Assembly: GCA_911728435.2 (NCBI GenBank)
Contig: OU452199.1
Span: 37,087,253-37,151,252 of the forward strand
Direction: 5' to 3'
DNA from: Apoderus coryli
Lineage: Eukaryota; Arthropoda; Insecta; Coleoptera; Attelabidae
DNA length: 64,000 nucleotides
Shown one piece after another: positions 18,716 to 33,727 of this stretch. The position numbers and the translations under genes were made by a program. Numbering within the stretch: the first letter of the stretch is position 1; each line of letters begins with the position of its first letter. A model generated the notes under the pieces. The model saw nothing but the letters and a program-made list of their open reading frames with translations, did no database searches and had not been told where the DNA came from.

Positions 18716-18965
18716 AATTATGAGATGCGTAAAATAAAACAACTTTAGTTTTAAATATTTCCAAACTTTTTATAATATACAAATTTATATTTCAAAATTA
18801 CACGACATGTTTCGTCCACACAGTGGCTTTATCAAGTGTAACTTAAGACTAAAATACAAAATATTTATATGGTTTATACAGGTAATAAAATATAGTAAAA
18901 GTGTAACAAAATGAAAACTAATAACTAGGTCACAGGTGCATAAAAACTACCTAGGGTTACAAAAA

Positions 18966-20454
18966 TTAAAAGAGGTTTAACAAAGGGGAATTATTTAAAT
19001 CTGTTTGGCTATTGAGTAATTTGTTAGAATATTTAAGTTTGTTTATTTCTAATGATTCTAAAAGATCCAGCTTTTTACTTTTGTTTTCTATGTGAATAAT
19101 TTTGAAATTATCGTTAAAATTATGATTATGTTCTAAAAGATGGTTAGAGTAATTAGAATTATCTTTTTTCTTGATATAACTTAAGTAGTGTTCCTTAATT
19201 CTTTTAGAAAAAACTTCGACCTGTCTGTCCTATGTAAACCCGATCGCAGTCTCCACACGTCAGTTCATACACTCCAGATTTTTCTCTCTTATCTATTTTT
19301 GATTTTGAATTTTTGATAATTTTTCCTATTGTATTGTTGGTCTTAAAAGCTATTTTTATATTATGTTGGTTAAAAAATTTTGAAATATAGGAAAAATTAT
19401 GGCCTGAGTAGGTAATTAAGCCATAATTTTGGGGATCTTTTGGGCTTTGAGGGAAAACAGTGTTGATTGTTTTTTTGTAATTAATTTTGTTTAGGATTTT
19501 TTCTACTATTGTCGGTTGATAACCATTGTTTACTGCTATTTGTTTAATTATATTAAGTTCTTTCTTGAAGTTAACTTTATTTAATGGAATATTAACAAGT
19601 CTATGGATCATACTGTGGAATGCGGCTAGTTTATGTTGGATAGGATGATTAGATGTATTATGTATAATTGTGTCTGTATGTGTAGGTTTATGAAAAATCG
19701 AAAACGAGTGTCTGTTACTTACTTTAGTGATTGTTAAATCAAGAAAATTGATAGAGTTGTTCGTTTCTTGTTGTATTGTAAATTTTATGTTAGGGTGCTG
19801 ATTGTTGATAAATTCAAAAAACTGGGTAAGTTGTCTATCAGTTCCTACAAAACAAGCAAGTACATCATCCACGTATCTATACCAATAGAGAAAGTTCTTA
19901 AAGAGAGGGTGTTGTTCTATTTTAAGTTCAAGATTGTTCATAAAAATTTCTGCTAATAGGGGACTCAAAGGATTGCCCATTATCAAACCATTGGTACTGC
20001 TGTAAATATTTTGGTTGAATTCAAAATAATTTTGGTTTAAGCATGTTTCTAAGGCTGTTAAAATATCTTGTTTAACTATGCAATTAGTTTTATTGGAATT
20101 TAGTAGGTTTTCTATGAGAGGTGTAATTTCGTTTATAGGTACACTTGGAAAGAGGTTAGTGACATCAAATGATATAAGTTTAGCATTACTAGGTAATGTA
20201 ATATTTTGTATTTTCCGAGATAATTCAAAAGAGTTTTTTATGGCATATTTAGGTGAAAATTTAGTGATATCTACGATAATTTTTGTCAGTCTTTGAGAAA
20301 CTTTATATGAGGGAGACGTGTAGAATGAGACGACAGGTCTTACAGGACAACCATTTTTATGAAGCTTCAGAAGTGAATAAAGTTTTGGAGCTTGAGGGTT
20401 CATAATATTTAAGCTTCTGGAATCATAATCGTTAAAAAATTTTTTAACCAACAT
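18966..20454 (-). pseudogene. Penelope-like RT plus GIY-YIG endonuclease, truncated and frameshifted
   Basis: An open frame of 416 codons covers the reverse transcriptase: LKLHKNGCPVRPVVS near residue 29, SFDVTNLFPSVP at 95-106, GLIMGNPLSP at 156-165 and the catalytic YRYVDDV with Asp 196 and 197. SGVYELTCGDCDRVYIGQTG starts the GIY-YIG nuclease near residue 393. One extra T in a T run (about 19207) shifts the frame inside the nuclease; the inverted copy lacks it. The frame begins at the head-to-head junction, so the N-terminal region of the family is missing. The RT core itself looks intact. Confidence 0.87.
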
Positions 20455-20460
20455 AATATA

Positions 20461-20850
20461 AAAATAGCTTTTAAGACCAACAATACAATAGGAAAAATTA
20501 TCAAAAATTCAAAATCAAAAATAGATAAGAGAGAAAAATCTGGAGTGTATGAACTGACGTGTGGAGACTGCGATCGGGTTTACATAGGACAGACAGGTCG
20601 AAGTTTTTCTAAAAGAATTAAGGAACACTACTTAAGTTATATCAAGAAAAAAGATAATTCTAATTACTCTAACCATCTTTTAGAACATAATCATAATTTT
20701 AACGATAATTTCAAAATTATTCACATAGAAAACAAAAGTAAAAAGCTGGATCTTTTAGAATCATTAGAAATAAACAAACTTAAATATTCTAACAAATTAC
20801 TCAATAGCCAAACAGATTTAAATAATTCCCCTTTGTTAAACCTCTTTTAA
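20461..20850 (+). pseudogene. GIY-YIG endonuclease fragment in the inverted Penelope copy
   Basis: The plus strand is open from the junction through KREKSGVYELTC, DCDRVYIGQTGRSFSKRIKE, LLEHNHNFNDNFKIIHIENK to the stop at 20848-20850. It holds the GVY...YIG signature, the catalytic-type Arg in GRSFSKRI and the Cys pair before it. The frame matches the minus copy without its homopolymer shift, so it shows the uninterrupted nuclease sequence. No RT precedes it, so it is a duplicated 3' piece and not a separate gene. Confidence 0.85.
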
Positions 20851-20979
20851 TTTTTGTAACCCTAGGTAGTTTTTATGCACCTGTGACCTAGTTATTAGTT
20901 TTCATTTTGTTACACTTTTACTATATTTTATTACCTGTATAAACCATATAAATATTTTGTATTTTAGTCTTAAGTTACA

Positions 20980-21015
20980 CTTGATAAAGCCACTGTGTGG
21001 ACGAAACATGTCGTG
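20980..21015 (+). other. Degenerate hammerhead-like motif in Penelope 3' region (mirror copy at 18802-18838)
   Basis: TTGATAAAGCCACTGTGTGG is followed by ACGAAACATGTC. The GAAAC box, the self-complementary ACATGT (a minimal stem III) and a GUC cleavage-type triplet fit hammerheads, and CCAC/GTGG can form part of stem II. The core CUGANGA reads TTGATAA, with U-A where C-G is expected, so activity is doubtful. Hammerheads are known in Penelope pseudo-LTRs. Confidence 0.5.
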
Positions 21016-21274
21016 TAATTTTGAAATATAAATTTGTATATTATAAAAAGTTTGGAAATATTTAAAACTAAAGTTGTTTTATTTTACGCAGTTATAATGA
21101 ATTTCCAACAAGTATCGGCTAATTCTATTCAAATTATGAGATGGTAAAGTAGTAGATTTTTATTTGTTTTTTAATTCTCACACCTATTCATTATGAGCTT
21201 GACACATTTTTGAACGTAAATCGAATCAATAGGTACCGGGTCGGACAGTACAGGGTTTGTTTTTGTATATTGTA

Positions 21275-31415: not shown

Positions 31416-32588
31416 AAATTTAGTGTAAATGCTTTTTGCCTTTTCAAAAACAATCAAATAAAATTTTCAGCTAGGTGTCCATTATGTGTGCTAGCATTTT
31501 GGAAAAAAAAGGGGCAGCGTATCGATCCGCTTATTTTTAGTTGGGACATTTGTAGTTAAAAGTTGTACAGTGGGCACCTTGTATAAATGAGAACAATAGA
31601 CCTATAAAAGACAAATCTATCTATTTAGAAAAAGATGACCAGACTTCAAGTACATATTTTGAGGTATACTGTGAAGCTTGCGTTCACACACAAACGCTTA
31701 CTGAACCCATTATATAGTTCGCATAGTATAACCTTGTCCATTATTTACATTAAATATACCTCCTCGCTCATTAAAGACCGATATACCAAATTCGTTCTAA
31801 TGTAGGTACTATAATTACATTACTGTAACAGAATACTCGTATAAAGTTTTAATATTATATTTAGCTCTATTTCCCGTTAACAGTACCACGCTTAAACAGT
31901 TGCAAATAACTACTTAGACCCAAAAAAAATATACTTTTATATACCCGATATCTACCATCTGTTTGAATACATCATGACACTGTAATTACAATTTTATATA
32001 ATAATATATAAACAACGAAACCATGAATTTTTAAAACCGTTTGAATTATTGAGAAACTAGTATTTTATGTTGGTGTATTACTGGCTGGCAAAGCGACATT
32101 AAATCGTTTACAACATTTATTAGGTCTGGAGTAAAGGTGATCCTTAGAGAGCTGACCAAGCTGGGTACAGGAAAAACTTTTATATTCTTGGAAAATTGAA
32201 CTTTATACGATATGTATATAATAGAGGAATTTAACGGTTTAAATAATATAAAAACTAATAAACTCGAAAACTTATTTTATGAGAGAAACAAGAAAACTGG
32301 AAATACTAGGTGGTTTTATCTTCGTAGTTCACAAATAACATCAAAAGCATGATCCTACTACAAATTTTCGTCAAAATTCTTTGGAAAATGCCGACAAATA
32401 TGAATTTTAAGGTTTTTTGTGGTACTTTGCGAGGCGAGGATATTTGAATGAGGTGTTAGCCTTTAAAGCATTAGCAAAATATAGATTAGGTACTGTACAA
32501 AAACAAGGATTCATTGAAATAGTCATACAAGGAAATGGAGCAAAATATGGGGCTTGATTTTATCTGGTAGCACCCTATGGCATAGATA
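31416..32588. other. No gene seen
   Basis: AT-rich, no recognised coding or terminal repeat. Confidence 0.45.
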
Positions 32589-32967
32589 CAATGTGGTCAT
32601 TTTATCTTGATATTTTGATTGATATTTTCAAAGATAGAATGTCGAACCAAAAAACATACTTGTATTTTTTTTAATAGCTCGTTAAATAGCCTGTTTTATT
32701 CAGATTTTAATGATATACGACACTTTATTTAGGTATTGTATCAGTAGTTTTCGATTAATTTGCAAAAAAAAAAACCGAATTACCATAAAATGCTATAATC
32801 TTAATAACCCATTACCATTATTAGAATCAAATTTGTGTCAAAACTGACGTTTATCAGTGTAATTCGGATCATTTTTAGCAAATTAATCGAAAACCACTAC
32901 CTAAAGTGTCATATATCATTAAAATCAGAATAAAGCAGCCTATCAATAAACAGGGTACAAAAAATAC

Positions 32968-33018
32968 CCTGTCCAGCGGTGTTCCGCTGCTGACGAGACC
33001 AATCGAGGTCGAAACAGG
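32968..33018 (+). ncRNA. Type III hammerhead ribozyme
   Basis: All parts fit. Stem III pairs CCTGT (32968-32972) with ACAGG (33014-33018). The cleavage triplet is GTC, with cleavage expected after C32973. Stem I is CAGCGG-TGTT-CCGCTG (32974-32989), a perfect 6-bp hairpin. The core box CTGACGA (32990-32996) matches CUGANGA. Stem II is GACC-AATCGA-GGTC (32997-33010). The second box GAAA is at 33011-33014. Every invariant core position of the family is present. Activity is predicted from sequence, not shown. Confidence 0.88.
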
Positions 33019-33082
33019 AGGAGCGGATTGCACGATTGTATCGTGCGATTGCGCACTATTCGTGCACACGCATCCATCCACA

Positions 33083-33132
33083 GTTTTCGAGCTCATGGTG
33101 CTCTCATCAGTACGGTAAGGAAACCGTATAAC
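33083..33132 (-). ncRNA. Hammerhead-like motif on the opposite strand, left arm of palindrome
   Basis: Mirror copy of 33369-33418 through the palindrome (coordinates sum to 66501). On the minus strand CTGATGA occupies 33104-33110 and GAAA 33085-33088, with the same stems. No base difference from the right-arm motif is seen across the core, so both polarities of an RNA from this element would carry a hammerhead. Confidence 0.68.
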
Positions 33133-33368
33133 GTAAGAAAACAGTCCATACCGACTGTGAAACAGGTGTGTTCTTGCACATGTGTGACAGCTACCTCAAC
33201 GTACGGTCTGGGGTCTCGCGACTCCCGCCTGGTTGAGATGCTTTTCCTTTGATTAGTACTAATCTCAACCAGGCGGGAGTCGCGAGACCCCAGACCGTAC
33301 GTTGAGGTAGCTGGCACACATGTACAAGAACACACCTGTCTCACAGTCGGTATGGACTGTTTTCTTAC

Positions 33369-33418
33369 GTTATACGGTTTCCTTACCGTACTGATGAGAG
33401 CACCATGAGCTCGAAAAC
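33369..33418 (+). ncRNA. Second hammerhead-like motif, right arm of palindrome
   Basis: Stem III is short, GTT (33369-33371) with AAC (33416-33418). The cleavage triplet is TTA, with the site after A33372. Stem I TACGGT-TTCCTT-ACCGTA is 33373-33390, the core CTGATGA 33391-33397, stem II GAGC-ACCATGA-GCTC 33398-33412, and GAAA 33413-33416. The catalytic core is canonical; the 3-bp stem III and UUA triplet suggest weak or dimer-dependent cleavage. Confidence 0.7.
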
Positions 33419-33727
33419 TGTGGATGGATGCGTGCGTCCACTCTCACTGTCCACTAGATACTAATAAACAGGGTATTCCGTTAAAAAAAACGCACTTGTT
33501 GTCGTATCTTTTCCAAAATGAGTTTTCTGTTTTTTACTAATAAAAAATTTCGCAAGACGTTTTTTGGTTCGTCATGCTATTTTTGGAAATAAAAAAGTTA
33601 CATCAAAACAAAATGATATCAAGATAAAATGACCACACTGTAAACATTGATTTCGAAAATGTTTTAATTTTGGGCCAAATTTTTACTGCGATTTAGTCCA
33701 TTTTGTCGTTCTTTTTCTAAATATATA

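Follow-up and report, generated by a model that had tools for sequence, protein, structure and literature searches.

Background

Every retrozyme described until 2024 has one ribozyme, according to the available part of a review of that year (PMC11721086), and a genomic retrozyme with two ribozymes would break this rule. The same part gives paired hammerheads for viroid-like circles (PMC11721086), and an excerpt of another paper gives them for the delta-like RNAs of toad and termite (PMC7936874). In the CC-licensed literature of PMC, searched by titles and abstract openings, we found no report of a retrozyme in a genome whose two strands each carry a hammerhead. As to what moves the retrozymes of animals, Penelope elements were put forward in 2020 as a strong candidate, in the portion of the paper by Cervera and de la Pena used here (PMC7229834). 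By an extract of PMC3846280, Penelope-like elements have inverted ends and a tail on one of them. In vitro, both strands of the target are cut and extended by a Penelope protein, synthesis starts at two internal RNA sites which bound the tail, and no difference in start site was seen between the top and bottom strands (PMC11167929). Plant retrozymes with LTRs are the subject of PMC4918200; the facts given about them below are taken from passages of PMC7229834 and PMC7761336.

We analysed a window, that is, the whole stretch of 64,000 nucleotides from the beetle Apoderus coryli to which all positions refer. A sequence-only reading of this window had pointed to a small insertion carrying a hammerhead ribozyme. 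We describe this insertion, its relatives in the genome and the way in which they may have been inserted.

Results

The block and its host repeat

The sequence-only reading had taken positions 32958 to 33462 as a 505-bp insertion in a MITE. Direct repeats of 13 bp (AATAAACAGGGTA) lie on both sides of this block, at 32945 to 32957 and at 33463 to 33475. We built an empty-site query by joining both flanks with one copy of the 13-mer, the joint being at position 378, and searched the genome with it. The window copy comes out split at the joint with an overlap of 13 bp, and the next 40 matches, all from other places, cross the joint at 72-84% identity (40 of 182 candidates were scored, and later matches are shorter pieces). 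Since the joined flanks are continuous elsewhere, we concluded that the block is indeed an insertion, that the 13-bp repeats are its target-site duplication and that it sits in a member of a dispersed, MITE-like repeat family. In this host (32587 to 33642) an inverted repeat of 27 nt lies close to the ends and a palindrome at 32686 to 32943 inside; about 40 relatives were scored in the genome. The host is MITE-like by its inverted repeats and its copy number.

The block consists of head-to-head inverted partial copies of a 397-nt unit which we call alpha. Its left end, end A (32956 to 32973, forward strand), corresponds to unit positions 1 to 18 and stands directly 5' of the expected cleavage site of the hammerhead; it begins with TA, two bases that also belong to the target duplication. 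A palindrome follows, with two arms of 173 nt that are 98% identical, the left one at 33067 to 33239 and the right one, which runs through the inverted unit from about 282 down to 112, at 33262 to 33434. The inversion junction between them has 22 nt (33240 to 33261). The block finishes with end B (33435 to 33462), an inverted short piece ending in ...CACTAGATACT, reached by a jump inside the unit, of which 17 nt match unit positions 310 down to 294 and continue into the duplication. If it were transcribed, the fold-back at 32958 to 33462 would form a near-perfect hairpin (-401.7 kcal/mol, z -36.7) and would be a likely Dicer substrate; the sub-threshold microRNA-precursor lines given by Rfam at the block come from this same hairpin.

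A hammerhead motif on each strand

The hammerhead claimed by the sequence-only reading at the left end of the block is present base for base. This motif, called here HHR+ (32968 to 33018, forward strand), is a complete type III hammerhead made of a 5-bp stem III (32968-32972 with 33014-33018), a 6-bp stem I (32974-32979 with 32984-32989), CTGACGA at 32990-32996, a 4-bp stem II (32997-33000 with 33007-33010) and GAAA at 33011-33014; cleavage would be expected after C32973 of the GUC triplet.

Rfam at its gathering thresholds has no match in the window, and at E values up to 10 it places weak sub-threshold lines at both hammerhead places described here. At HHR+ this line is Hammerhead_1 (32984 to 33026, 13.9 bits for a cut-off of 34). 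The hammerhead fold is absent from the minimum-energy fold of a 71-nt segment, and the complete block of 505 nt folds with stems I and II but lacks stem III. In the 53-nt core all three stems are present at minimum energy, with stem I extended by two pairs into the core (-21.3 kcal/mol, compared with -20.2 for the strict hammerhead fold). Because Rfam and the longer minimum-energy folds fail to give HHR+, its support comes from the motif scan, the shuffles and the comparison between copies. As Rfam was silent at the gathering thresholds, we used motif scans with shuffle controls.

The second weak line, Hammerhead_3 with 15.9 bits for a cut-off of 48.5, led us to a type III motif on the opposite strand, HHR-. 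It lies on the reverse strand in the left arm of the palindrome (33083 to 33132) and, inverted, on the forward strand in the right arm (33369 to 33418). Its elements are GTTA, a 6-bp hairpin TACGGT/ACCGTA, CTGATGA, GAGC/GCTC and GAAA; the triplet is UUA, and stem III has only 3 bp here. We scanned both strands of the 64 kb for such motifs, the minimum being 4 pairs in stem I, 3 in stem II and 2 in stem III, and found HHR+ and HHR-, the latter once per palindrome arm, and nothing else.

It could be argued that HHR+ alone is functional, HHR- being decayed or due to chance, and that we are looking at an ordinary retrozyme with one hammerhead. The low Rfam score of HHR- goes in this direction, as does its stem III, which has 3 bp in most intact alpha copies. 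On the other hand, this loose scan finds the two motifs alone, whereas chance matches are rare: 150 dinucleotide shuffles of the window gave a total of 2 type III matches at the loosest setting, and 20000 shuffles of the element gave 2. In addition HHR- recurs, with all its stems paired, in a second family described below (beta), where stem II is different and stem III has 4 bp, and its stem I covaries. We therefore hold that reading to be quite improbable.

Two families of copies

The genome contains two related families, with a unit of 397 nt for alpha and of about 603 nt for beta, and in both of them HHR+ and HHR- lie on opposite strands. For alpha, a 541-nt query has 97 matches (40 of 61 candidates scored), and a count from two genome searches gives about 47 places. 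We fetched and analysed 34 alpha loci, whose flanks differ from copy to copy. Duplications of at least 11 bp were found at 12 of the 34 and of at least 9 bp at 13, the present locus included, within a range of 9-13 bp; the other 21 have no duplication of at least 9 bp. When flanks were swapped between loci, at least 11 bp was reached in 1 of 1122 pairs and at least 9 bp in 13 of 1122. Different flanks with their own duplications at 13 of 34 loci bear out the direct repeats of our locus as a target duplication and not as internal sequence.

Mapped on one real unit of 397 nt, 24 of the 34 loci contain both orientations and 10 a single one. A typical locus has its outer ends at unit positions about 1 (A) and about 297 (B), which are about 100 nt apart on the unit; both ends read inwards in the plus sense and meet at a variable junction. 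The sequence-only reading had regarded the combination of a palindrome with a hammerhead as unusual; the fold-back proves to be a common product of insertion, in these 24 alpha loci and also in the Penelope elements of this genome. Among the 13 alpha insertions with a duplication, one (L006) is not inverted. Other loci are truncated, non-inverted or complex (L010, L011 and L050 for instance), and L044 has end B on both sides, between flanks that form an inverted repeat of their own, at least 24 nt long. In some insertions the sequence continues across the unit junction, over up to two units: tandem head-to-tail units of 397 nt occur by two in L003/L014, and L003 has two complete units followed by an inverted part.

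We considered that both arms of a palindrome might as a general rule come from one shared template RNA, and rejected it. Among 12 loci compared, the arms are clearly closer to each other than copies from different places in L001, L015, L016 and L050, intermediate in L027 and L046, and no closer or little closer than such copies in the six others (L003, L004, L018, L044, L047 and L055).

The beta family was found as a diverged relative beside the alpha copy of L023. In a BLAST comparison the alpha unit and this beta sequence share two 28-nt stretches only, one per hammerhead. Both motifs could be read in three beta places (L023/L085, L086 and L087), the last belonging to an 83% subfamily arranged in tandem. 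Judged by coordinates, beta units follow each other at a spacing of 603 bp, in rows of up to four. From coordinates alone, and with 40 of 314 candidates scored, beta forms 39 clusters, of which 24 have both orientations and 15 a single one, some of the latter owing to a query that does not cover the whole unit. Ends B and A were accepted in beta at query positions up to 9 and at 70-106, respectively. The stretch between A and B, which we call the tail, has 100 nt in alpha and about 84 nt in beta.

The stems differ between the families on both sides at once. Stem I of HHR+ is CAGCGG/CCGCTG in alpha, TTGCGG/CCGCAA in L086 (with one mismatch in L023) and TCGCGG/CCGCGA in L087, where HHR+ also has CTGAAGA and three pairs in stem II. 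Stem II of HHR- is GAGC/GCTC in alpha and GGAC/GTCC or GAAC/GTTC in beta, and the four pairs of stem III in beta HHR- join TGCT with AGCA. For stem I of HHR-, 4 of 6 pairs are changed on both sides among 30 sequences, 29 of them distinct and two from beta (each alpha locus contributes one segment, which makes 28 out of 33). One of these pairs is C-G or U-A in 13 rows each and divides the rows into two groups; for the others, the two-sided changes are confined to one to three rows each. The beta rows of one HHR- alignment are off by one base in stem II, and only stem I was counted. For HHR+, 4 of 15 pairs are changed on both sides among 26 sequences (24 distinct), all four from two beta rows alone. 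This alignment holds L086 and 25 of 32 segments; it omits the second segments of L003 and L016, both of L046, one of L047, L025 and L040. None of 500 shuffles attained the covariation score of either motif, and the number of pair types was reached in 19 of 500 for HHR- and 42 of 500 for HHR+, in a control which ignores the relatedness of the copies.

Strictly intact motifs are seen in 14 of 32 segments for HHR+ and in 14 of 33 for HHR-. Searching the 428 Mb genome for exact core patterns, we counted 40 occurrences for HHR+ (a pattern written with CTGACGA only), 20 for alpha HHR- and 4 for beta HHR-, and none for the reversed patterns used as controls. Exact cores of both kinds stand on opposite strands, 62-182 nt from start to start, at nine alpha and three beta places (paired by eye); the remaining cores have no exact partner at this distance. 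As two related families carry both motifs, one on each strand, and as their stems show compensatory changes, both motifs were probably maintained as RNA structures.

Other hammerhead matches were found in the genome with RF00008 (three matches, L031 to L033, 68 of 63124 candidates scored) and RF00163 (four matches, 73 of 52198 candidates scored), none of them at the alpha or beta places listed. L031, L032 and L033 carry, near their positions 1501-1562, another type III-like motif, TACAGTC...CTGATGA GTC..GAC GAAACTGTA, with Hammerhead_3 scores of 36-38 bits, below the cut-off; this kind is absent from the window. A type I motif, TCACCA CTGATGA ... GAAACGGCCGTC TGGTGA, lies at about 3286 (forward strand) of L077, in the flank of a Penelope copy. 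At the level of motifs, the genome thus contains at least three kinds of hammerhead.

The insertions resemble those of Penelope elements

The window itself contains a Penelope-like element (18726 to 21134) with reverse transcriptase and GIY-YIG domains. It is an inverted, fold-back insertion too, between 12-bp duplications (AATTATGAGATG), with one end at a site 1 and the other at a site 2 located 44 nt further. We examined this copy together with the 19 relatives that ranked highest among 97 matches (family 1). All 12 copies with two ends have one at site 1 and the other, inverted, at site 2 about 40 nt further, so that the two ends differ by a "tail" present on one only; 11 of these 12 have duplications of 12-15 bp, and L077 has 6. 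Seven further copies have one end in view and L073 has none. In a second family, many match ends cluster at query positions about 534 and about 577, that is, about 43 nt apart. Family 2 also forms tandem arrays with spacings of 3273 and 3485 bp, has frames of 859 aa in L084 and of 877 aa elsewhere, and shows by eye a minimal hammerhead-like motif (CCACTGATGA...GAAACATGTTTGG) upstream of the start sites. The 30 relatives of its protein include sequences of the beetle Coccinella septempunctata (42% identity) and the psyllid Cacopsylla melanoneura (31%).

Inverted ends at two fixed sites, one of each, are thus seen in 12 of the 13 alpha insertions with a duplication, in 18 of the 24 inverted beta clusters and in all 12 two-ended Penelope copies. 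The duplications are of similar length, with 9-13 bp at 13 of the 34 loci of alpha and 12-15 bp in 11 of the 12 copies of Penelope, and the targets are AT-rich, as judged by eye from these duplications. On these comparisons, an enzyme of the Penelope class probably moved the element; as regards what moves animal retrozymes, the shared two-site inverted ends and the duplications are genomic evidence in favour of Penelope. We tried to assign the retrozyme to one of the two Penelope families by the look of the start sites and dropped the attempt: A, B and the 100-nt stretch between them show by eye no clear similarity to the site regions of either family. The Penelope matches in the genome also include a third group.

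Two other origins of the fold-back were weighed against these ends. In the first, the palindrome arose at the level of DNA, as an inverted duplication or a MITE hairpin, independently of the mode of insertion, an idea suggested by the position of the block inside a MITE-like repeat with inverted repeats of its own. It is contradicted by the recurrence of A and B: the same two outer ends are found, inverted, at unrelated sites with their own duplications, the same inverted structure is found in Penelope copies, and 40 related host repeats cross the joint without the block. We rejected it as extremely unlikely. In the second, a LINE-type enzyme with frequent twin priming mobilised the element in place of a Penelope enzyme. 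Twin priming also yields inversions, and duplications of such length, which speaks for this origin; LINE inversions, however, are known with a single fixed end. In the alpha family two sites fix both ends in 12 of the 13 insertions with a duplication, and 24 of 34 loci have both orientations, as do Penelope copies of the same genome. A LINE-type mover is thus very unlikely, although slightly less so than a DNA-level origin.

Discussion

How the element may be copied and inserted

We regard it as likely that the block is a non-autonomous, non-coding retrozyme which has a hammerhead motif on either strand and was copied by Penelope machinery from RNA of minus sense. No long open reading frame was found in the one alpha and the one beta copy tested. 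The sequence-only reading had proposed a small retroelement moving through self-cleaving RNA. The analysis agrees with a retroelement that is small, non-coding, equipped with a hammerhead motif and inserted with a target duplication, and it adds copies elsewhere; we infer self-cleavage and circularisation of its RNA from the sequence. The strand that is reverse-transcribed would be the one opposite to the noticed hammerhead, which carries HHR-. This follows from the analogy with Penelope elements, because there the open reading frame gives the sense strand and the ends are cDNA starts on the sense RNA.

The following course of events can be proposed. Transcription of fold-back or tandem copies would give RNA of both polarities; a fold-back transcript, from whichever side it is read, would have a plus-sense 5' end and a minus-sense 3' end. 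Since such transcripts carry both plus and minus sequence, both polarities could arise without an RNA-copying enzyme. The hammerheads on both polarities would trim plus and minus multimers and cut them into monomers, and ligation would give circles, which as templates may extend beyond a single unit. A Penelope-type protein would bind circles or multimers of minus RNA and cut both strands of the target, and both 3' ends would prime on the minus-sense retrozyme RNA. One cDNA strand would start at A and the other at B, as those of Penelope do at the two sides of the tail, and the two cDNAs, joined in the middle of the insertion, would form a new fold-back. Against this scheme, the in vitro result of PMC11167929 leaves the rule of one end of each kind unexplained, and the tails of the retrozymes (100 and about 84 nt) are longer than those of the Penelope elements of this genome (about 40 nt). 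The 21 alpha loci lacking a duplication of at least 9 bp and the 10 with a single orientation also speak against it. The family would provide many small templates for asking why a Penelope insertion has one tailed and one untailed end.

The element might, alternatively, be an independent RNA replicon, viroid- or satellite-like, with a symmetric rolling circle, its DNA copies being occasional by-products of Penelope; as regards the insertion, this is compatible with copying from minus RNA by Penelope machinery. The hammerhead motifs on both polarities with their compensatory changes argue for it, and so does the choice of the minus strand as the likely template even though the plus strand has the stronger motif; paired hammerheads are reported, in the parts of the literature at hand, for viroid-like circles and for the delta-like RNAs of toad and termite. 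Against it, many copies with subfamilies in one genome fit a resident retroelement, and these integrated copies, some with target duplications, differ from a viroid, which has no DNA stage. The circular fold of one alpha unit is branched and not rod-like (65-68% paired, z -4.4 and -4.7), nor is that of the beta copy L086 rod-like (64-65% paired). In these two copies no stop-free frame runs round the unit, the longest being 130 and 74 aa in the alpha copy and 67 and 81 aa in L086. Plain transcription of fold-back copies could account for both polarities. Finally, a 28-nt HHR+ core pattern has no match in viral contigs, in a search that may omit near records. We consider such a replicon unlikely.

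Our preferred reading remains that of a retrozyme copied from minus RNA by a Penelope-type enzyme. It can be extended: the hammerheads of both polarities would be active, the RNA would replicate in an animal by a symmetric rolling circle, and Penelope enzymes would turn the minus RNA into fold-back DNA. We give this extension a rather low chance, though not a negligible one. If it were true, the family would be a genomic bridge between retrotransposons and viroid-like replicons, and paired ribozymes would be an unsafe mark of an infectious circular RNA.

Comparison with known systems

The RNAs with paired hammerheads, i.e. the zeta-type or viroid-like circles and the delta-like RNAs, share with our families type III hammerheads on both polarities, present here as sequence motifs. 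Beta HHR- has a CUA triplet together with a GAAAG box; in the excerpt of PMC7936874 these features are called unusual among delta-like hammerheads, GAAAg being given for those of the toad. Unlike viroid-like and delta-like RNAs, the families exist as integrated multicopy DNA with target duplications, and unlike zeta-type circles the alpha and beta copies tested have neither a rod fold nor an endless open reading frame.

The plant LTR retrozymes have likewise a type III hammerhead and a unit of several hundred nt (PMC7229834 and PMC7761336, in the passages used). The same passages give them LTRs, 4-bp duplications and an LTR retrotransposon as mover, whereas here the duplications have 9-13 bp and no LTR structure was seen, in a look which excluded the PBS and PPT.

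With Penelope-like elements the families share inverted ends with an optional tail on one of them (PMC3846280, as excerpted). Two internal start sites of synthesis and the extension of both target strands (PMC11167929) would be common to both by analogy. Both have hammerheads in their RNA, those of Penelope-like elements being described, in the text available, as minimal type I and ours being type III motifs. They differ in that our families have no long open reading frame and a longer tail, of 100 or about 84 nt.

The metazoan non-LTR retrozymes, as portrayed in the available sections of PMC7229834, are also small non-coding hammerhead units (150-450 bp there, 397 and about 603 nt here), with tandem copies, duplications of more than 4 bp and Penelope elements in the same genome. 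Penelope is their proposed mover; here the insertions carry the Penelope signature. Their description as having a type I hammerhead, one per unit, fails for our families, in which the motifs are of type III and lie on both strands. Judging from the sequences of its copies, the element probably resembles in its mode of action the metazoan retrozymes, with Penelope enzymes as movers, and it differs from described retrozymes by type III motifs on both strands.
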